A DNA stretch of 64,000 nt, taken from the NCBI GenBank assembly GCA_947646655.1, contig CANSHI010000003.1:1-64000 (forward strand). Direction: 5' to 3'. Source of the stretch: an uncultured bacterium (GTDB lineage Bacteria > Bacillota_I > Bacilli_A > RF39 > UBA660). The notes under the pieces were generated by a model that searched no databases, had not been told where the DNA came from, and saw nothing but the letters and a program-made list of their open reading frames with translations. Both the position numbers and the translations under genes were made by a program. Positions 13,656 to 46,894 of this stretch are shown here, in pieces (position 1 is the stretch's first letter; every line of letters begins with the position of its first letter).

Positions 13656-14992
13656 ATGAGAAAAAATAAAAAGAAAATATTGATGACTTCTATAGCAGGA
13701 CTAGCTGTTTTTGGAAGTATATTGGGAAGCCATTTATTAAAAGAAGAAGGAACTTTATTACCCCCCCCCCGAGCAGTAAAACTTTAGCGGTATATATAGA
13801 AGATGAGAATAGTGAGACAGGCTATAGTAAAAGTGACTCTACACAATTTCCGACAGAAGGATACATATTAAATATAGAAAAGAGTACATGTACAAATGGA
13901 GGAGTATTAAATCAAGATACGAGTACAAAAAAGATATCATTAAGTATAGAACATAAAAGTAGTTGTTCATTGTACTTTGATAAAGAAATGCTTAAGGCTT
14001 CGGATATATTGGCGAAAAAGATAGCAAATGCAAAATCATCAGAAAATCTAAATTTTGCAGAACCAGCAATAACAGATGAGACATCAGATGGCTTGTATGC
14101 AATGGAAGACGATTATGGAACGAGTTATTACTACAGAGGCGCAGTAGAAGATAACTATGTCAAATTTGCAGGTTTTTATTGGAGGATAATAAGAATCAAT
14201 GGAGACGGGAGTTTGAGAATAATATATGATGGTACACAAGCACATGAGAATGGAGCAAATAGTACAGATAGATTAGTCATACTAAGTTCATATAATGCAA
14301 ATAGAAATGATGCGAAATATGTAGGATATATGTATGGACCGAGTGGATCAGGAGCAAGTACAAGCAAGAGTCAGGCACAGTCAAACACAGCTGATTCAGA
14401 TATAAAGACAGTAATAGAGAATTGGTATAAGACAAACATAGCAGATAAAGGGTATGATGGATACATAAGTGATAATGTCTTTTGTAATGATCGGACAATA
14501 CCAGGAAAAGAGGCAACAGGATGGAGTAGTGATACAGGGTTAGGGTATGGAACAAATACGACAGCATATGGAGCATATGCAAGATTAGGAGCAAATTCGT
14601 TAGGGGCAAACTATTACAATCCAGTACCGAAGTTTATATGTGAGAATAAAAATGATGCGTTTACGAACGAAGATACAAAGAAAGGGAATGGAAAGCTAGG
14701 ACAAAAAGTAGGAATGATAACAGCAGATGAGATAGTAGTAGCAGGAAGTGGAAAGTGTAATACAACAAATAGTAGTTATTACCTATTTAAGGGACCATGG
14801 TATTGGTCGTTCTCGCCTTTTTATATCGGTCCTGGTGGTTATGCTTACGTATTTGCTATTGGTAATGGGGGGATTCTTAACTATGGTAGTGTCAATAATG
14901 CAGGCGGCGTCGCCCCAGTTATCTCACTGAGTGCAGATTACGTAAGAACCATGAGCGGAAATGGTACTATGAGTTCTCCGTTTGAAGCTTAG
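13656..14992 (+). pseudogene. Secreted surface protein, frame set by a C10 tract (phase-variable, OFF as read)
   Basis: ATG 13656 opens a signal-peptide-like N-terminus (basic start, then MTSIAGLAVFGSILGSHLL) that runs into ten C residues at 13761-13770. In the sequence as given the frame stops at 13785-13787 after 43 codons. Eleven or eight C residues would join it to the long open frame that ends at 14992, giving about 445 residues. The mature part has a Cys pair near its start, a WYWSF region near 14800 and a C-terminal cassette ending in a GVAPVISL motif. That end resembles C-type-lectin-fold variable domains (DUF6273-like), an inference by pattern. Codon use changes sharply near 14795. 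A true pseudogene or a base-count error in the tract are alternatives. Confidence 0.7.
13761..13770 (+). repeat. C10 homopolymer tract inside a surface-protein gene
   Basis: Ten consecutive C residues in DNA that otherwise has very few C runs. The tract lies 35 codons after the start codon, between the signal peptide and mature region. A change of +1 or -2 restores the downstream frame exactly. Confidence 0.9.
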
Positions 14993-33179: not shown

Positions 33180-33247
33180 TAAATTTCTATTTAAAGTAAT
33201 TTGACAATAGTAGAGATTTAATGTATTCTTATAATAGGAGTGAAAAT

Positions 33248-34150
33248 ATGACATTAGTAATTATGGCTGCTGGTATGGGCAGTAGATATGGAGGACTTAA
33301 ACAAATTGATGCTGTAGGTCCAAATGGAGAGTTTATCATAGATTATTCTGTCTATGATGCAATTAAAGCAGGATTTGACAAAGTAGTCTTTATTATAAAA
33401 CGAGAAAATGAAGAAATATTTAAGGAAACAATCGGTAAAAGAGTTGAAAAGTATATAGATGTAAAATATGCTTTTCAAGATTTAGATAATATTCCAGAGG
33501 GAATAGAAGTTCCTAGTGATAGAGTAAAACCTTGGGGAACTACGCATGCGATTTTAGCTTGTAAAGATATCGTTAAAGAAAATTTTGCCATTATAAATGC
33601 CGATGATTTTTATGGGTTTGATGCCTATAAGACTGTCAGTGAATTTTTGAATAACTTAGATAGTAATTCTTTTAATATAGGTTTAGTCGGCTATAGAGTA
33701 GAAAATACTTTGACAGAAAATGGATCTGTTAAAAGAGGAATATGTGAAGTTGAAGATAAATATTTAACTAAGCTAATAGAAAGCCAAGTATCCAGGGAAA
33801 ATGGTATTATAAATGCTAAGCCTTTAGATGGGTCGCAATCTTTTGTTATAAGTAATAATCAACTTGTTTCAATGAATATGTTAGGTTTTACGCCAAAGAT
33901 ATTCGATTTGTTGGAAGAAGATTTTAAAGAATACTTAAATGAAAATAGAGAAAATTTGAGCAAATGTGAAAGACTTATACCTGACACAGTTTATAAATAT
34001 ATAAAACAAAATAAAGTTAAAGTTGAGGTTCTTGATACTACTTCTACGTGGTATGGAGTGACATATAAGGAAGATAGGCCGATGATTATTTCATCTATCA
34101 ATAAACTATTAGATGATGAAGTTTATCCTCGTGACTTATGGAATAAATAA
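33248..34150 (+). CDS. NTP-transferase-family sugar nucleotidyltransferase
   Basis: The 300-residue protein starts with the nucleotide-binding pattern of sugar-1-phosphate nucleotidyltransferases (LVIMAAGMGSRYGGLKQIDA) and has the metal-binding INADDFYG near residue 117. This group activates sugar 1-phosphates as NDP-sugars; which sugar cannot be told from the sequence. ATG 33248 follows AGGAGTG. A promoter with TTGACA near 33201 precedes it. It stands alone after the NHEJ operon and before a decayed toxin-antitoxin-like unit. Confidence 0.85.
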   Translation: MTLVIMAAGMGSRYGGLKQIDAVGPNGEFIIDYSVYDAIKAGFDKVVFIIKRENEEIFKETIGKRVEKYIDVKYAFQDLDNIPEGIEVPSDRVKPWGTTHAILACKDIVKENFAIINADDFYGFDAYKTVSEFLNNLDSNSFNIGLVGYRVENTLTENGSVKRGICEVEDKYLTKLIESQVSRENGIINAKPLDGSQSFVISNNQLVSMNMLGFTPKIFDLLEEDFKEYLNENRENLSKCERLIPDTVYKYIKQNKVKVEVLDTTSTWYGVTYKEDRPMIISSINKLLDDEVYPRDLWNK

Positions 34151-34155
34151 AAGAC

Positions 34156-34270
34156 TTGAGAAAGAAACTCAAGTGTAGTATTATTAATTTAGAGAGCACG
34201 TACTATTTACTACGTGTTCCATGTGTGGATGCACGAGTGAATTTTTAGGAATTTACTCGTATCTTTTTGT
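34156..34270 (+). ncRNA. Small RNA of module A1 (peptide part lost)
   Basis: This is the first of three related units. Promoter TTGAGA (34156-34161), 17 bases, TATTAT (34179-34184). The predicted RNA starts near 34191, has a first hairpin CACGTA/TACGTG and ends in a long hairpin (CACGAGTGAAT... ATTTACTCGT, 34232-34260) followed by a T5 run. The opposing peptide frame present in A2 and A3 is missing here and replaced by the poly-G promoter of the next gene, so only the RNA half remains. Confidence 0.6.
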
Positions 34271-34331
34271 ATTAATTAGTTGTGGCAATGATTAGTTTAA
34301 AAATATCTCTTTTTATAACAAACGATCATCC

Positions 34332-34365
34332 TTGACAAACCTTGGGGGGGGGGTGATAAAATGTT
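34332..34365 (+). promoter_or_regulatory. Promoter with a G10 tract between -35 and -10
   Basis: TTGACA (34332-34337) is followed by AACCTT, ten G residues (34344-34353) and TGATAAAAT, in which TGA-TAAAAT can serve as an extended -10. The spacer is 19 bases with ten G and would be 17 with eight. Changes in the tract would therefore tune promoter strength, a recognised form of transcriptional phase variation. Seen: the sequence. Inferred: the switching. Confidence 0.65.
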
Positions 34366-34403
34366 AATATAAGCATATAAATGTGAGAGGTATGGAAAAT
34401 TAT

Positions 34404-35360
34404 ATGAATGAAGTGAATAAAAAGGCAGAATATAACGCGATTAAATTTTCAAAATATGATTGGAAGAAAATATGTGCAGTAGTTTTTATGATAATATTAT
34501 TATACTCAGTTTCAACGAAATTTGTAACTTTAACTGGTGATAATATAGTTTTATTAGACATGTACATGTTCGAAGTTTCAAGTGTACAACTAACATTATC
34601 TTTTGCCATAATATATTTATATTCAATATTTACTGACAAAAAGAAATTGTCTTATTTAGTTCTTTTCCTATTATTTGTCAGTTTTATATATTCAGCTTAT
34701 ATATATTTTAATATAGAAATTGTAGTGTCAAATATGAGTGAACAGACCATAGTATATATTCAAAATCACACGCAGTATGGAGAAGGAATTGTTTTTTACT
34801 GTATAAGTTTTATAATACTTATAATAAACGTTTTTTTGCCAGGGAAAAAGAAAACTAGAAACGAAACACAAACGTTTAATAATGAAATAAATAATTCATT
34901 TGCTATAAATGACAATTATATTTTTGCAACCTATATATATGGAATAGAAAAGTGTCCTAGTTTATATAATAAGCTTTCCGTGTTGATTGATGATGATACA
35001 TCTGGAATTTTAAATATTAATATAAATATTGAGGCCGAAAAACCCGAGATTATTTCTATTCCTAAAAAAGATATAAAAGATATAAAATATAAACTTAGTA
35101 TAATATCAAAAGAAGTAATGTCGGAAAAGGTCTACGGTCCAGCGGAGCATGTAAGAGACATTGCGCTTTTCGGAGGGCCGACATTTTTAATTATAAAATG
35201 TATAAAAGGGGATAAAATAAAAGATTATTATAAAATGAAAAGTACCCAAGTATATGACATAACTATTATTTATTGTGAAGATAATGAGGAAAAGAAAATT
35301 ATGTTTCAAACTAAAGAAAATCCAAATAAATTTTTAAATAATATAAAAAAATTGGCATAA
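34404..35360 (+). CDS. Four-TM membrane protein with cytoplasmic C-terminal domain (paralogue 1)
   Basis: The 318-residue product has four hydrophobic segments in residues 22-145 and a C-terminal domain of about 170 residues. That domain contains IPKKDIKDIKYKLSIISKEV, DYYKMKSTQVYDITIIY and the end pattern FQTKENPNKFLNNIKKL. It is clearly homologous to the protein encoded at 58516-59439 (FQTKFNPAEFLNKLKE). I know no named family. AGAGG lies about 12 bases before ATG 34404; the frame extends to GTG 34383, but the paralogue has the same leader layout and supports the inner start. The promoter contains a G10 tract, so expression may switch. Confidence 0.75.
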   Translation: MNEVNKKAEYNAIKFSKYDWKKICAVVFMIILLYSVSTKFVTLTGDNIVLLDMYMFEVSSVQLTLSFAIIYLYSIFTDKKKLSYLVLFLLFVSFIYSAYIYFNIEIVVSNMSEQTIVYIQNHTQYGEGIVFYCISFIILIINVFLPGKKKTRNETQTFNNEINNSFAINDNYIFATYIYGIEKCPSLYNKLSVLIDDDTSGILNININIEAEKPEIISIPKKDIKDIKYKLSIISKEVMSEKVYGPAEHVRDIALFGGPTFLIIKCIKGDKIKDYYKMKSTQVYDITIIYCEDNEEKKIMFQTKENPNKFLNNIKKLA

Positions 35361-35488
35361 AAAATATATTTTAGATAATTTTGATGATTTAGTATAGTTA
35401 TTGTTTATTATTCCGTGTGTTCTTCAGTTATGATTAATCTTTTGTAAAACTTTTTATTAAATAACTTGAGAAAAAAATTCAAGTGTAG

Positions 35489-35580
35489 TATTATTAACTC
35501 AGAGAGCGCGTACTATTTACTACGTGTTCCTGTTTGGGTTGCACGAGTGAATTTTTAGGAATTTACTCGTGTCTTTTTGT
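35489..35580 (+). ncRNA. Candidate antitoxin small RNA, module A2
   Basis: Promoter TTGAGA (35466-35471), 17-base spacer, TATTAT (35489-35494). The predicted RNA of about 80 bases starts near 35501, forms a hairpin CGCGTA/TACGTG and ends with the long terminator stem (CACGAGTGAAT / ATTTACTCGTG, 35542-35571) and T5. It runs toward the peptide gene on the other strand and would overlap the 3' part of that mRNA. This is the layout of type I antitoxins such as RatA. Role is inferred. Confidence 0.65.
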
Positions 35581-35589
35581 CTTAATTAG

Positions 35590-35658
35590 TTAATTAAATA
35601 TGACTATTACAATGATGACTAAAATAAGCAATATATTAAGTATAAATAATTTATTCAT
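35590..35658 (-). CDS. 22-residue hydrophobic peptide, candidate type I toxin (A2)
   Basis: Read on the minus strand from 35658, the frame gives MNKLFILNILLILVIIVI followed by VIFN and TAA. AAGGAGTG lies at good spacing before the ATG. The peptide is one hydrophobic helix with a lysine near the start, like membrane-acting type I toxins. A promoter on the same strand, TTGACA (35805-35800) with a 17-base spacer and TAGACT (35782-35777), places the start of the mRNA near 35770 with a leader of about 110 bases. The identical peptide is encoded in A3 and a related one in cluster B (shared FI-x-NILLI). It is not similar to Fst or TxpA as I recall them. Confidence 0.65.
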   Translation of the reverse strand: MNKLFILNILLILVIIVIVIFN

Positions 35659-35885
35659 AACTAACACTCCTTTTCATCTTACCCCTAAAATTGAGTACCA
35701 AAACCCCCTGAAAAATCAAAAAGTCTTAAGACAAAAAGAAAAACACAAATAAATAAAGTCGAACTCTCGAGGTAATAGTCTAGCATATCATTTTGTCGAT
35801 GTCAAAAATTTGGGTATAAAAAAACTATTTAACATTTAAAAATTTTTTTGAAAAATAAACACTTGAGAAAAAAATTCAAGTGTAG

Positions 35886-35978
35886 TATTATTAACTCGGA
35901 GAGCACGTACTATTTACTACGTGTTCCGGTTTGGATTTTCACGAGTGAATTTTTAGGAATTTACTCGTGTCTTTTTGT
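35886..35978 (+). ncRNA. Candidate antitoxin small RNA, module A3
   Basis: Promoter TTGAGA (35863-35868), 17-base spacer, TATTAT (35886-35891). The RNA from about 35898 has the CACGTA/TACGTG hairpin and the terminator stem at 35940-35969 with T5. It opposes the A3 peptide gene. Confidence 0.65.
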
Positions 35979-35987
35979 CTTAATTAG

Positions 35988-36056
35988 TTAATTAAATATG
36001 ACTATTACAATGATGACTAAAATAAGCAATATATTAAGTATAAATAATTTATTCAT
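35988..36056 (-). CDS. 22-residue hydrophobic peptide, candidate type I toxin (A3)
   Basis: The peptide is identical to that of A2, with the same AAGGAGTG ribosome site and leader. Its promoter differs: TTGACA (36203-36198), 17-base spacer, TAAACT (36180-36175). Retention of an intact promoter, leader and frame in both tandem copies suggests selection for function. Confidence 0.65.
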   Translation of the reverse strand: MNKLFILNILLILVIIVIVIFN

Positions 36057-36261
36057 AACTAACACTCCTTTTCATCTTACCCCTAAAATTGAGTACCAAA
36101 ACCCCCTGAAAAATCAAAAAGTCTTAAGACAAAAAGAAAAACACAAATAAATAAAGTCGAACTCTCAAGATAATAGTTTAGCATACCACTTCAGTAATGT
36201 CAAAAGTTCGGCTTAAACAGGGCATTTGTGGATAAAAATTGTATTTTGACATAATGCTTTT

Positions 36262-36277
36262 CTTACAATAATGTAAG
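36262..36277. promoter_or_regulatory. BceR-type operator
   Basis: CTTACA-ATAA-TGTAAG is a perfect inverted repeat and contains TTACA-N4-TGTAA, the form TNACA-N4-TGTAA known for BceR-like response regulators. It lies about 50 bases before the response regulator gene, next to TTGACA (36247) and upstream of a TATAAT (36299). Autoregulation of the module is likely. Confidence 0.75.
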
Positions 36278-36324
36278 TATATAGTTTAAATTTTATGTTA
36301 TAATATTTATCAGGTGAATGACTT

Positions 36325-36984
36325 ATGAAAAGTGTTTTTATTATTGAGGATGACATTTCTGTTAGAGAAGAATTATTTATTTTATTAAATAATGCTGGCT
36401 ATAATACAAAAGTACTAACTACATTTGATAATGTAGTTCAAGATATACTCGATTTTAAACCTGATCTAGTATTACTCGATATAAATATTCCAGGTTTAAA
36501 TGGTGAGGTAGTTCTTCTAAATCTGAGAAAACGGTCAGATGTTCCTGTTATTATGGTAACAAGCAGAAACACAGAAAGTGATGAAGTATTGTCGATGTCT
36601 TATGGTGCAGATGATTATATAACTAAACCTTATAATCCAAACGTTTTATTACTTAGAATTGGCGCTGTGTTAAAAAGAACGAGCACATCTAATTTGCCAA
36701 ATTATAGGGATCTCGATATAAATATGCAAAAAGGAATCATTTCTAATGGCAAAGATGAAATAATTTTGACAAAAAATGAAATGATAATATTCAATTATTT
36801 GCTTATAAATCAATCTCGAATCGTTTCTAGAGATGAATTAATGACTGAACTATGGGATAATGACGAGTATATAAATGATAATGCACTTTCAGTTAATATT
36901 AGTAGATTACGAAATAAATTAAAAGAAATAGGAATCGAAAATCCGATCGAGACAAGGAAAGGAATCGGGTATATTTTGACATGA
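36325..36984 (+). CDS. BceR-like response regulator (OmpR family)
   Basis: The 219-residue protein has a receiver domain (phospho-accepting Asp in LVLLDINIPG, lysine in DDYITKPY) and a C-terminal winged helix of the OmpR type (ELMTELWDNDEYINDNALSV, then NISRLRNKLKEI). It is the DNA-binding partner of the sensor kinase encoded directly after it, with a four-base ATGA overlap. With the ABC transporter downstream it forms a Bce-type peptide-antibiotic detoxification module. A matching operator lies in its own promoter region. Confidence 0.92.
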   Translation: MKSVFIIEDDISVREELFILLNNAGYNTKVLTTFDNVVQDILDFKPDLVLLDINIPGLNGEVVLLNLRKRSDVPVIMVTSRNTESDEVLSMSYGADDYITKPYNPNVLLLRIGAVLKRTSTSNLPNYRDLDINMQKGIISNGKDEIILTKNEMIIFNYLLINQSRIVSRDELMTELWDNDEYINDNALSVNISRLRNKLKEIGIENPIETRKGIGYILT

Positions 36985-38012
36985 AGTTTAAAGAACACTT
37001 AAAAGATAGATTATATGCACTTTTGTTAATATCATTTTTATACTTGCTTCTAATACTTTTATTTTTAGCTTTTAAAAGTAATTTACAATTGATAATTGCT
37101 TGTTTTGTTTTATTAACGATTACATTTATTTTATTATTATTATATGATTTTTTTCGAAAGAGAAAATTTTATAATGATTTAATATTCAAAGTTGGTAATT
37201 TGGACAAGGCATATTTAGTATTAGAAATGATCGATAAACCGCGTTTTTATGAAGGTGAATTATTTTGTCAGATATTGTATGATATAGATAAATCTATGAT
37301 TGAAAGAGTAAGTAATTTTGAAGGTCAGATGAATGATTTTAAAGAGTTTATTGAAATGTGGATTCATGAAGTTAAAATACCTTTATCTTCCTTAACACTA
37401 ATGGCTCATAATCATAAAGATAAATATGATAAAAAATCTCTTTTACAAATGAAGAGAATAGAAAACTATGTTGAGCAAGTCCTTTATTATGTGAGACAAG
37501 ATTGTGCTGAGTCCGATTATTTAATTAATAAAATTAATTTATCCAAAGTTATTTCTAATGTCATTTTAAAAAATAAAGATGAGTTATTAGAAAATAAAAT
37601 AGAACTTTTAGTAGAAGTCAAAGAAAAAGAAGTCTTTAGTGATTCTAAATGGTTGGAATTTATAATAAATCAAATTTTTAATAATTGTATTAAGTATAAA
37701 AAAGAGAAAAACAGTTTTATAAAAATACAATCTTTAGAAGATGAAAATTCCGTATATTTAATAATAGAAGACAATGGAATAGGAATTAAAAAGTCTGATT
37801 TATCACGCGTTTTTGATAAATCTTTTACTGGCTCTAATGGCAGATATTCTTCTAGATCAACTGGAATGGGTTTATATATTTGTAAAAATCTTTGTAAAAA
37901 ATTAGGTCACAAGATTGAGATCGATTCAATTCAAGATGAATTTACGAGAGTAAGAATAACTTTTTCAAAAAATAACTTTTATGAAGAAGCTTTAAATGTT
38001 ACAAAAAAGTAA
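36981..38012 (+). CDS. BceS-like intramembrane-sensing histidine kinase
   Basis: The 343-residue protein has two close N-terminal membrane segments (about 12-30 and 36-55) with almost no extracellular loop, typical of BceS-type kinases that sense through their partner permease. The catalytic parts are the H-box FIEMWIHEVKIPLSSL, the N-box IFNNCIKYKKEKN, G1 EDNGIGIKKSDL and G2 GMGLYICKNL. It phosphorylates the response regulator whose gene it overlaps. Confidence 0.92.
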   Translation: MKFKEHLKDRLYALLLISFLYLLLILLFLAFKSNLQLIIACFVLLTITFILLLLYDFFRKRKFYNDLIFKVGNLDKAYLVLEMIDKPRFYEGELFCQILYDIDKSMIERVSNFEGQMNDFKEFIEMWIHEVKIPLSSLTLMAHNHKDKYDKKSLLQMKRIENYVEQVLYYVRQDCAESDYLINKINLSKVISNVILKNKDELLENKIELLVEVKEKEVFSDSKWLEFIINQIFNNCIKYKKEKNSFIKIQSLEDENSVYLIIEDNGIGIKKSDLSRVFDKSFTGSNGRYSSRSTGMGLYICKNLCKKLGHKIEIDSIQDEFTRVRITFSKNNFYEEALNVTKK

Positions 38013-38084
38013 TATAATATCAGATTGAACGAGCGACCTTTAAAGATTTTTGTAATAATATTTTAAGTGAAGGGAAGAATTAAA

Positions 38085-38858
38085 ATGGAAAATGAAAAAA
38101 TTTTAAAAGTGGATAAAATTGAAAAGTACTATGGAAATCGATCTTCACTTACTAAAGCAATCGATAATCTTTCTTTTGAAGTAGAAAAGGGAGAATTTGT
38201 GGCATTAATGGGGGCAAGTGGATCGGGAAAAACGACTTTACTAAATTGTATTTCAACTATAGATAGAGTGACAGCGGGACATATTTTTGTCGATGGGGAT
38301 GATATAACTAAGTTGAAAGGAAATGCCTTAAATAAGTTTAGAAGAGAAAAATTAGGATTTATATTTCAAGATTTTAACTTACTCGATACGTTAACGGCTT
38401 ATGAGAATATTGCACTTGCTTTGTCTATTCAAAATATTTCTGCCCAAGTTATAGAAGAGAAAATAAAAAAAGTTGCTAAAGATTTAGATATAACGAATGT
38501 ATTAAATAAATATCCTTATAATATGTCAGGTGGTCAAAAGCAGCGGGTAGCAAGTGCTAGAGCGATTATAACTGATCCAAAACTAATTTTGGCGGATGAA
38601 CCGACAGGTGCACTCGATTCGAAATCATCAAAGATGCTACTAGAGAGGTTTAATTATTTGAACCAAGAAATTAACGCGACAATTCTTATGGTTACTCATG
38701 ATGCTTTTTCAGCATCGTATGCGAGCAGAGTCATATTTATAAAAGATGGACATATATTTGATGAGCTTCATAAAGGCAATGATTCAAGAAAAGAATTTTT
38801 TGATAAAATTATCGATGTCGTAACATTACTTGGAGGAGATTTGAATGATGCTCTTTAA
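38085..38858 (+). CDS. BceA-like ABC transporter ATPase
   Basis: The 257-residue protein has Walker A GASGSGKTTL, the signature NMSGGQKQRVASARAI, Walker B KLILADEPTG and a switch histidine in MVTHD. It belongs to the MacB/BceA group that powers FtsX-type permeases acting on lipid II-binding peptide antibiotics. ATG 38085 (GAAGGGAAG upstream) is preferred to the GTG at 38067. It overlaps the permease gene by 14 bases. Confidence 0.93.
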   Translation: MENEKILKVDKIEKYYGNRSSLTKAIDNLSFEVEKGEFVALMGASGSGKTTLLNCISTIDRVTAGHIFVDGDDITKLKGNALNKFRREKLGFIFQDFNLLDTLTAYENIALALSIQNISAQVIEEKIKKVAKDLDITNVLNKYPYNMSGGQKQRVASARAIITDPKLILADEPTGALDSKSSKMLLERFNYLNQEINATILMVTHDAFSASYASRVIFIKDGHIFDELHKGNDSRKEFFDKIIDVVTLLGGDLNDAL

Positions 38859-40917
38859 ATTGTCGGTAAAAAATATTAAAAAAAGTATTAAAGACTATGC
38901 TATTTATTTCTTTACACTGATTTTAGGAGTAGCAATATTTTATGTATTTAATTCGATAGAAAGCCAAACTATTATGTTAAATGTTTCATCTAATACTCGG
39001 GATATAATCAAACTGATGATGAGTATACTTTCAGGTGTAAGTGTTTTCGTTTCGTGTATTTTAGGATTTTTAATAATTTACGCAAGCAGATTTTTGATAA
39101 AGAGAAGAAATAAAGAATTTGGAATATATTTAACATTAGGAATGAGTAAAAGAAAAATATCGACGATTTTATTTTTCGAAACTTTATTAATTGGAATTTT
39201 GTCGCTATTAGTAGGACTATTTTTAGGTGTATTTTTATCACAATTTATGAGTTTATTAGTCGCGAATATGTTTGAAGCGAAGCTAACGGAATTTGTATTT
39301 ACTTTTTCAAGTTCAGCTCTCGTTAAAACCTTGATATATTTTGGAATAATGTATTTATTAGTAATGATTTTTAACACTATCAATGTAAATCGTTACAAAT
39401 TAATCGATCTGTTACAGTCGCATAGAAAAAACGAAAAAATTAAGCTTAAAAATCCTATATTTTGTACAGTTGTTTTTATCATTTCAGTTATTATGTTGAG
39501 CTATGCGTATTATTTGGTTACATCCGGTTTAGAGAATTTGCGTTTTGCTAAAGATATTTTTAAACCCATAATTTTAGGTTGCATATCGACAGTGCTCATT
39601 TTTTGGAGTTTATCTGGTTTAATTATTCGCATCATGATGTATTTTAAAAAATCATACTATAAAGGTTTAAACAGCTTTATAGTAAGACAAATAAGCAGTA
39701 AAATTAATACCACTGTCATTTCTATTTCAGTAATATGTATAATGTTGTTTGTGACAATTTGTGTATTTTCTTCTGCTTTGTCGATTAAAAATTCGATGAG
39801 TAAAAATTTAAAAACTTTAGTTCCTATGGATTTGCAAATTATAAAGTCTGCTAATTTAGATGAATCCGATTTTTCAGAAAATGCAAATTATAAAGAAGAA
39901 CAAATTAGTTATTCTAAAAAATCTATCAAAGACACTCTTTTAACATTGGGATTTAATTCTGATAAATATTTAAAAGATTATTATGAATATGGTATTTATG
40001 CGACAGATCAAGTTACCCTTAAGGATACATTAGGTGTAAAATATGAATTTTACGAAGACAAGTTTTCATTTAATAATTTTTCGGCAAGTGAAATGATTAT
40101 GAAATTGAGTGATTATAATCGTTTAGCAGAACTATTTAATGAAGAAAAATATACATTAGAGAATGACGAATATATAATGATTTCCGATTATAAAGATATT
40201 ATAGATATGCGTAATGACGGTTTAAAAGCGAATACTAGTATCAATATAGGCGATAGTACATTATTTCCAAAATATGATAAATGCAAAGATGGATTTGTGA
40301 TAATGTCTTCTAATCATAGTAATTTTGGGATAATAGTTGTTCCCGATGAAGTACTAGATGATAATATGAAATCTTTAAGTCTAATGGTTTCTAACTATGA
40401 CGTCGTTTCAGAAGAAGAAAAAGAAAATATCGAAAAAATAATCATCGAAGATTTAGAAAAGAATGAACTTTTTAAGGCTACCACTCTAAATATTTATACT
40501 AAAAAGAAAATTTATGATTCTAGCATTGGGCTAGGTGCAATGGCAACATTTATCGGTTTATATTTAGGTATAATATTTTTAATAAGTAGTGCAGCAATTT
40601 TGGCACTTAAAGAGCTTTCAGAAAGTACTGATAACAAAAATCGTTTTATGATGTTAAGAAGAATTGGAGTTTCAGAGAAAATGATCAAAGGAGCTTTATT
40701 CAAACAAATAGCAGTATTTTTTATGGCACCTTTATTGCTGGCAATTATTCATTCGATTTTTGGTATTAAATTTTCAATAACTATATTATCAATTTTTGGA
40801 TCCAACGAATTGCTTCCATCGACATTTATGACAGCTGTATTTTTAATATTTATATATGGTGGTTATTTTTTCATTACATATCATTCAAGTAAAAATATTA
40901 TTAAAGTAAAAGATTAA
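38845..40917 (+). CDS. BceB-like permease with large extracellular domain
   Basis: The 690-residue protein has ten membrane segments: about eight in residues 15-330, then an extracellular domain of about 220 residues (330-560), then the last segments. Two FtsX-type regions are visible, for example near EFGIYLTLGMSKRKI and RFMMLRRIGVSEKMI. This is the BceB layout, in which the large domain contacts the antibiotic-lipid complex and the permease relays flux information to the BceS kinase. GGAGGAG precedes ATG 38845. Confidence 0.92.
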   Translation: MMLFKLSVKNIKKSIKDYAIYFFTLILGVAIFYVFNSIESQTIMLNVSSNTRDIIKLMMSILSGVSVFVSCILGFLIIYASRFLIKRRNKEFGIYLTLGMSKRKISTILFFETLLIGILSLLVGLFLGVFLSQFMSLLVANMFEAKLTEFVFTFSSSALVKTLIYFGIMYLLVMIFNTINVNRYKLIDLLQSHRKNEKIKLKNPIFCTVVFIISVIMLSYAYYLVTSGLENLRFAKDIFKPIILGCISTVLIFWSLSGLIIRIMMYFKKSYYKGLNSFIVRQISSKINTTVISISVICIMLFVTICVFSSALSIKNSMSKNLKTLVPMDLQIIKSANLDESDFSENANYKEEQISYSKKSIKDTLLTLGFNSDKYLKDYYEYGIYATDQVTLKDTLGVKYEFYEDKFSFNNFSASEMIMKLSDYNRLAELFNEEKYTLENDEYIMISDYKDIIDMRNDGLKANTSINIGDSTLFPKYDKCKDGFVIMSSNHSNFGIIVVPDEVLDDNMKSLSLMVSNYDVVSEEEKENIEKIIIEDLEKNELFKATTLNIYTKKKIYDSSIGLGAMATFIGLYLGIIFLISSAAILALKELSESTDNKNRFMMLRRIGVSEKMIKGALFKQIAVFFMAPLLLAIIHSIFGIKFSITILSIFGSNELLPSTFMTAVFLIFIYGGYFFITYHSSKNIIKVKD

Positions 40918-45813: not shown

Positions 45814-45860
45814 TAGAAATTTAGTGCTAACTTTTTAGAAATTTTTCTTGTTGAAAAAGC

Positions 45861-46180
45861 TTGTTTAAAGAATGTTGGTAATATATAATTATAGTGTGAG
45901 AACGTTTGATTATTATTTTATGTTTCTTATCGCTTTGGGATACGAGAAGACTAACAGGAAAAGTTTTTTGGTCGACAATATAATTTAAAACTAAATGATG
46001 ATAATTTGTATCAACAGTATATTAAAAAATCATTTTAGAAAACACCTCTTTCTGTTTAAACTTCCTGAAAATTGGTTTGTCCCCTGAAGTAAAAACCCCA
46101 TGAACTGAGATAGAAAGAAAAACTGACGAATAGATGTCAAACGTTTAAACTCACTGTAAAATGGTTAAAGGATGTTAAAT
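45861..46180. pseudogene. Degraded small-RNA/peptide module B1
   Basis: The plus-strand promoter is still visible (TTGTTT 45861-45866, 17 bases, TATAAT 45884-45889). The terminator stem is poor, the minus-strand peptide frame is reduced to ATG-ATT-TTT-TAA, and the minus-strand promoter has lost its 17-base spacing. The leader (CCCCTGAAGTAAAAACCCCA, as read on the plus strand) is still nearly identical to B2 and B3, so this is a decayed copy. Confidence 0.65.
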
Positions 46181-46283: not shown

Positions 46284-46380
46284 TATAATTAAATTAAGAG
46301 AACGTCAGATTATCTAATCAATGTTTCTCTATGTTGTGGAAACACGAATAGACTCTCAGAGATTTATTCGTGGTTTTTTG
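46284..46380 (+). ncRNA. Candidate antitoxin small RNA, module B2
   Basis: Promoter TTGCTA (46261-46266), 17 bases, TATAAT (46284-46289). The RNA of about 85 bases starts near 46296, forms AGAGAAC/GTTTCTCT and ends with CACGAATA/TATTCGTG (46343-46372) plus T6. A stretch in its first hairpin loop (TAATCAA) matches the plus strand opposite the toxin mRNA leader (TAATCAAACG near 46563), so it could pair with that leader too. Antitoxin role is inferred. Confidence 0.65.
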
Positions 46381-46386
46381 TTGATA

Positions 46387-46461
46387 TTACATTTTAAACA
46401 ACAAGATGATTATTACGAATATCAACAATATATTAATTATAAAAGCTTGCTTTGCATTCAT
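46387..46461 (-). CDS. 24-residue hydrophobic peptide, candidate type I toxin (B2)
   Basis: Minus-strand frame from 46461: MNAKQAFIINILLIFVII followed by ILLFKM and TAA, with AGAGG seven bases before the ATG. Promoter TTGACA (46610-46605), 17 bases, TATAGT (46587-46582) gives a leader of about 115 bases. In that leader CTTTCTATC can pair with GATAGAAAG, which abuts the ribosome site, so translation may be locked by structure. Shares FI-x-NILLI-x(2)-II with the cluster A peptides. Confidence 0.65.
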   Translation of the reverse strand: MNAKQAFIINILLIFVIIILLFKM

Positions 46462-46715: not shown

Positions 46716-46812
46716 TATAATTAAATTAAGAGAACGTCAGATTATCTAATCAATGTTTCTCTCGTATGGTGAAACACGAATAGACTCTCAGGAAATCTAC
46801 TCGTGCTTTTTT
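46716..46812 (+). ncRNA. Candidate antitoxin small RNA, module B3
   Basis: Promoter TTGCAG (46693-46698), 17 bases, TATAAT (46716-46721). The RNA from about 46728 is very similar to that of B2 and ends in a stem CACGA-x-TAGA / TCTA-x-TCGTG followed by T6. Confidence 0.65.
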
Positions 46813-46819
46813 GTTGATT

Positions 46820-46894
46820 CTACATTTTGACTAACAAAATGATGATTATTATAATCAACAATATATTAACTATAAATGCCATTTTAACATTCAT
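46820..46894 (-). CDS. 24-residue hydrophobic peptide, candidate type I toxin (B3)
   Basis: Minus-strand frame from 46894: MNVKMAFIVNILLIIIII followed by ILLVKM and TAG. AAAGGAAG precedes the ATG. Promoter TTGACA (47045-47040), 17 bases, TATAGT (47022-47017). Compared with B2 many codons differ while hydrophobicity, length and the FI-x-NILLI core are kept, which suggests the peptide is under selection. Confidence 0.65.
   Translation of the reverse strand: MNVKMAFIVNILLIIIIIILLVKM

Follow-up and report, generated by a model that had tools for sequence, protein, structure and literature searches.

Tandem antisense RNA genes opposite tiny hydrophobic peptides in uncultured gut Bacilli: a candidate family of type I toxin-antitoxin modules with an end-pairing leader

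Type I toxin-antitoxin systems are hard to find because their peptides fall below the limits of gene calling and their sequences are not conserved. The locus described here raises the question of whether a repeated, structured RNA gene that faces a very short hydrophobic frame on the opposite strand is such a system and, if so, how the ribosome site of the peptide mRNA would be controlled. It lies in a window of 64,000 nucleotides (G000:C3:1-64000), which is part of a genome of 1.43 Mb in 23 contigs. A preliminary description had proposed three tandem type I-like modules for this place, two of them intact, each with promoters on both strands and a toxin leader of 110 bases.

Three copies of a structured RNA gene of 80-90 nt are located on the plus strand between 34156 and 36211 (cluster A), and each consists of a promoter followed by a 5' hairpin and an intrinsic terminator. 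Promoters of the pattern TTGAGA-N17-TATTAT occupy positions 34156-34184, 35466-35494 and 35863-35891. The RNA extends from 34187 to 34273 in unit A1 (106 bits with the RNA model R1, see below), from 35497 to 35583 in unit A2 (terminator 35541-35572 plus T-run; fold z -5.4; 109 bits) and from 35894 to 35981 in unit A3 (terminator 35940-35969, placed by fold and R1 match). Compared with dinucleotide shuffles, the RNA folds of the cluster reach z scores of -4.3 to -5.4, and the region contains 5 terminator-like sites versus 0.4 in shuffles. Opposite A2 and A3, the minus strand encodes the same putative toxin, the 22-residue hydrophobic peptide MNKLFILNILLILVIIVIVIFN (35590-35658 including the stop codon, and 35988-36056). 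In both cases, it is preceded by the ribosome site AAGGAG, by a leader of about 111 nt (35659-35770 and 36057-36168), which is counted from an inferred start site, as the toxin mRNA ends are likewise inferred, and by a minus-strand promoter with TG before the -10 box (TTGACA-N17-TAGACT, 35777-35805; TTGACA-N17-TAAACT, 36175-36203). The architecture given in the preliminary description was thus recovered on both strands, with one amendment: what had been counted as the third module (34156-34281) stands as an RNA gene, but a search of the strand opposite A1 for a peptide or its remnant revealed none that is recognisable. In the same region, a run of ten G (34344-34353) separates TTGACA (34332) from TAAAAT (34357), at a spacing that is now 19 nt, upstream of a 325-residue membrane ORF at 34383 with no Pfam match; slippage in this run would alter the promoter spacing, as in phase-variable promoters.

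Altogether, the genome contains eight of the RNA genes and seven intact peptides in four places. A DNA search of the genome uncovered further pairs at 29.9-30.7 kb of contig C9 and at 46.3-46.9 kb of the window (cluster B). The latter comprises the antitoxin RNA B1 (46285-46386, plus strand; R1 76.9 bits) with the putative toxin peptide MNAKQAFIINILLIFVIIILLFKM (46390-46461, minus strand), and the antitoxin RNA B2 (46717-46819, plus strand; R1 74.7 bits) with the putative toxin peptide MNVKMAFIVNILLIIIIIILLVKM (46823-46894, minus strand). Moreover, a decayed unit, B0, which has lost both the RNA terminator and the peptide start, was recognised by alignment at 45855-46130. The model R1 was built from seven units, and a search with it identified an eighth, unit D, at C9:5429, which was absent from the model. 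On the strand opposite the RNA, unit D encodes the 23-residue peptide MNKLLFIEIIILLFIIILLIIKI with the ribosome site AAGGAGG, which argues that the arrangement is more than chance. A profile of the five distinct peptides retrieved only the seven frames from this genome (E<=1.3e-6), and all of them adjoin an antitoxin RNA, whereas many RNA units lack an intact peptide.

Diverged homologues were detected in three of the eight other genomes of the genus, with six units in G003, ten in G002 (E<1e-6) and three in G001. These relatives were found by the RNA model alone (R1, then R2, with lax filters), a search that is blind to the peptide; in total, they possess 19 RNA genes and 12 intact peptides. 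The preliminary description had regarded relatives that keep the RNA and lose the peptide frame as evidence against its reading. Across the four genomes of the genus, an intact hydrophobic frame of 22-26 residues with a ribosome site is present at the expected place in 19 of 27 RNA units. The opposite-strand peptides of the relatives are hydrophobic and differ by species (MKLSIDFDGLFWGLVALAVVIILLR, MSSNYKLYFIIYLLLFIILILSIKI, MVKLLNKMFNAIVVLILIILILLINR). About 700 further draws from the family and class, searched with strict filters that, with R1, had failed on the G003 units detected by lax ones, yielded nothing else convincing except a weak candidate with a 30-residue hydrophobic frame in another genus (G256; E 0.006), the sole one beyond the genus. 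RNA-model matches in G004, G006, G008, G018, G069 and G071 were treated as chance after inspection of the sequence, in which there was no module. DNA BLAST against the relatives gave only short chance-like matches, and the match in G007 consists of a promoter on its own, 5' of a greA-like gene. A pattern scan for RNAs of the A, C and D type in the genome and viral contigs returned none, and a promoter-type pattern scan had real matches only on contigs of G001 and G002. A tblastn search with one peptide against plasmids and phages found no match, a search that low-complexity masking makes uninformative. As for the toxin promoters, an element similar to CCTATTTAAGCCAAAAATTTGACA is conserved 5' of the promoter in most units of the genome under study (window 46630, 47064 and 36221, minus strand; L025), and elements of the GGGCATTTGACA or GGCGATTTGACA type occur at the site preceding the toxin promoter in the G003 and G002 units; this element is possibly an operator.

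Do the frames behave like genes for type I toxins? The peptides have 22-26 residues, of which about 0.8 are hydrophobic in this genome, and in this they resemble type I toxins, which are small hydrophobic peptides of fewer than 60 residues with one membrane helix. For the five own peptides, the summed pN/pS comes to 0.34, and for those of G002 to 0.22; values of 0.60 and 0.52 were obtained for the G003 and G001 pairs, whose sequences are too close to judge. These ratios suggest purifying selection on the peptide, with changes within groups being mostly synonymous per site, though the sequence varies between species. The peptides match no family in Pfam, NCBIfam or PHROGs. The PXXXG motif of Fst/Ldr is absent, and there is no proline in any intact peptide. 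Furthermore, neither Pfam nor NCBIfam links them to the toxins of the TxpA/BsrG, hok/Sok or aapA/IsoA systems, and for the Ibs peptides there is no Pfam match and no Rfam match at cluster A. At the gathering score, Rfam recognises only RNase P in the window, and its best hit in the A region (E=1.9) is chance. The earlier suggestion of a new peptide family unlike Fst or TxpA is therefore upheld, and there is a precedent in Clostridioides difficile, where novel type I toxins lack homologues among the known toxins (PMC6563280). An antisense RNA gene opposite the toxin gene, from which transcription is predicted, is indicated by promoters, folds and terminators on both strands. We consider it quite likely that the intact units are type I toxin-antitoxin modules and form a family that had no name before; both strands would be transcribed, and the peptide would be toxic.

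The convergent, type I-like layout of the preliminary description stands, but the overlap is probably larger than its wording suggests. In seven of the eight own units, a toxin-strand terminator is predicted just past the 5' end of the antitoxin, inside the antitoxin promoter (0-5% in shuffles of each); in A2, it is an inverted repeat followed by a T-rich stretch (35464-35484, minus strand), and in A3 it lies at 35859-35883 (minus strand). The hairpin shared by the two genes has no T-run on the minus strand. Because the predicted toxin terminator is located inside the antitoxin promoter, transcription of the toxin probably runs through the entire antitoxin gene, which, judged from the sequence, would be nested in the toxin transcript. 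Terminator prediction gave no evident toxin terminator in most relatives. By its position, the antitoxin can base-pair with the 3' part of the toxin mRNA, the end of which is predicted.

In the predicted folds, the ribosome site of the toxin mRNA is locked by a co-evolving leader helix. RNAalifold, applied de novo to the seven own leaders, paired a pyrimidine tract with the Shine-Dalgarno region and placed a hairpin at the start codon. For instance, the Shine-Dalgarno strand of A2, TAAGATGAAAAGGAG (35667-35681, minus strand), which contains AAGGAG, and the anti-Shine-Dalgarno strand in its leader, TTTCTTTTTGTCTTA (35727-35741, minus strand), can form 15 consecutive pairs. Among the own units, double changes affect 4 of 13 leader/Shine-Dalgarno pairs, a count from a hand-made alignment of 32 columns that was arranged around the helix and is biased in its favour, and 96.9% of the cells are paired versus 57-68% in slid versions. 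With an alignment-free longest-helix score, the cognate assignment of leaders to Shine-Dalgarno regions was the best of 5040 and of 40320 permutations for the main sets of group representatives, several of the permutation sets including related, non-independent units. Shuffle tests of single units are weak (p 0.02-0.6), and Fisher's method over ten groups gives 7e-4. Neither for the ribosome site nor for the leader did direct pairing with the antitoxin exceed shuffles or permutations.

A feature that goes beyond the claims of the preliminary description is pairing between the toxin leader and the 3' end of the mRNA that carries it. This pairing arises because the two RNAs of a unit start near-identically and the 3' part of the toxin mRNA complements the antitoxin; it requires a toxin mRNA that extends beyond the 5' end of the antitoxin. 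When the 5' ends of toxin and antitoxin RNAs were aligned, cognate pairs scored above permuted ones (1/5040 and 6/40320). Full-length folds contain 20-42 end pairs with the cognate 3' end, versus 7-17 when the 3' end is shuffled and 3-14 when it is non-cognate, and permutation tests of the end-pairing duplex gave 1/5040 and 3/40320, or 1/40320 when G256 was included. The candidate in G256 (L126 1370-1610) also has near-identical 5' ends, and on its toxin strand a hairpin followed by TTTTTT lies at the 5' end of the antitoxin; its end pairing reaches -36.9 kcal/mol, versus -8.5 to -24.5 for the G256 3' end with other leaders. Long-distance pairing between the 5' and 3' ends of the toxin mRNA, as in hok and AapA, is thus present in the predicted folds.

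The two pairings of the leader would be connected in a switch. When the 3' part was removed, mimicking antitoxin binding, the predicted Shine-Dalgarno/leader pairing increased in 14 of 14 units, and with non-cognate 3' parts it was again higher than with the cognate one in all 14. These folds were computed at 37 C for the RNA alone, ignoring proteins and ribosomes, and the full-length mRNA folds so that its ribosome site is freed only in part (0.14-0.73), which leaves the "open" state uncertain. According to the proposed mechanism, the minus-strand transcript would encode a single-helix membrane peptide of 22-24 residues that is presumably toxic. Its mRNA would be made untranslatable by the pyrimidine-rich leader strand lying on the Shine-Dalgarno region, with the start codon held in a hairpin too. 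The plus-strand RNA of 80-90 nt would be the antitoxin; as a full complement of the toxin mRNA's 3' part, it would form a duplex that RNase III presumably degrades. The toxin leader would act as an internal mimic of the antitoxin, able to bind the 3' end of the molecule to which it belongs, and this end pairing would draw the anti-Shine-Dalgarno strand away from the ribosome site. The antitoxin would win the competition for the 3' end because it is the perfect complement; the leader would be released and the ribosome site closed. That antitoxin binding closes the ribosome site comes close to an even chance in our estimation, the choice of the translated fold being an assumption. Tentatively, we put forward the idea that the leader imitates the antitoxin within the toxin mRNA itself, and that the ribosome site is toggled as the genuine antitoxin releases or captures this mimic.

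A variant within the type I reading, which does not exclude the switch, is that the end-paired full-length mRNA is an inert store, as for hok and aapA, and has to be trimmed at one end by an RNase before translation. The cognate 5'-3' pairing is indeed long and conserved, most folds hide the start codon, and such pairing keeps the aapA and hok mRNAs inert (PMC6733600). However, end pairing would unlock rather than lock the ribosome site because its 5' arm is the anti-Shine-Dalgarno strand itself, and we regard the inert store as somewhat less likely than closure of the site by the antitoxin.

Under the best reading, the module works most like BsrG/SR4, with hok/AapA-like end pairing, and is a member of no family tested. 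As in bsrG/SR4 and txpA/RatA of Bacillus subtilis, the genes are convergent, with complementarity between the antitoxin and the 3' part of the toxin mRNA. Binding of SR4 at the 3' end of the bsrG mRNA tightens sequestration of the Shine-Dalgarno sequence (PMC6562991), which is the effect predicted here. However, the toxins of both systems are longer and unrelated, their complementarity covers 100-140 bp, and a nested antitoxin gene and near-identical 5' RNA ends do not appear in the descriptions compared here. In the par/Fst-Ldr systems, the promoters are convergent, an internal stem holds the Shine-Dalgarno sequence and the 5' end of the toxin mRNA is sequestered (PMC7472228). The present modules share these three traits but lack the PXXXG motif. 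Direct repeats as in Fst, which make the 5' ends complementary, were rejected; the repeats are inverted, so that the 5' ends of both RNAs are alike, and pairing of antitoxin and leader is not above permutation. A shared bidirectional terminator was likewise rejected, given the minus-strand hairpin without T-run and the toxin terminator in the antitoxin promoter. With hok/Sok and aapA/IsoA, whose toxin mRNAs combine 5'-3' long-distance pairing and anti-Shine-Dalgarno strands (PMC6733600), the modules share both of these elements. However, the peptides are unrelated, the 5' pairing arm is here itself the anti-Shine-Dalgarno strand, and the complementarity to the antitoxin lies in the 3' part of the toxin mRNA, whereas it lies in the 5' part in hok/Sok. 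The multiple copies and the very short hydrophobic peptide are reminiscent of Ibs/Sib, which also occurs in multiple copies, but the geometry is different, there is no Pfam match and the two are unrelated by any test run. IbsC of Escherichia coli has 19 residues (PMC8309996).

Instead of being toxic, the peptide could serve, under antisense control, as a small membrane regulator that acts, for instance, on a sensor kinase or transporter encoded nearby. The gene neighbourhood speaks for this in part: clusters A (window 33221-40917) and C (L038) are located upstream of a response regulator/kinase pair, with genes for FtsX-type ABC permeases nearby. However, clusters B and D stand beside unrelated housekeeping-type genes without a regulator/kinase setting, the peptide sequence has been swapped between species while the silencing folds were kept, and the RNA genes outlast the peptide, as suits a toxin, which together make a regulator unlikely. 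Still far less probable is a repetitive intergenic element in which the plus-strand RNA is the sole functional product and the frame is fortuitous: hydrophobic frames arise readily in AT-rich DNA, and many are listed in the frame scan, but here several groups have retained the frame, its position, the ribosome site and the excess of synonymous changes, and the leader co-varies with the ribosome site.

In the type I reading, uncultured gut Bacilli harbour a family that is recognised by its co-varying RNA folds and has many copies per genome. Its units offer a natural series with concerted changes in antitoxin, leader and 3' end, which makes control of a distant ribosome site by a 3'-bound antitoxin testable. 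A built-in copy of the antitoxin would, if true, be a distinct regulatory logic that co-evolves while the sequences of RNA and peptide change. Furthermore, a leader resembling the antitoxin 5' end may serve as a search recipe for other unseen modules.

Elsewhere in the window, a run of ten C (13761-13770) lies between a signal-anchor-like start (MRKNKKKILMTSIAGLAVFGSILGSHLLKEEGTLLPPP) and a long open frame in another phase. This locus looks like a phase-variable surface-protein gene that is currently out of frame.
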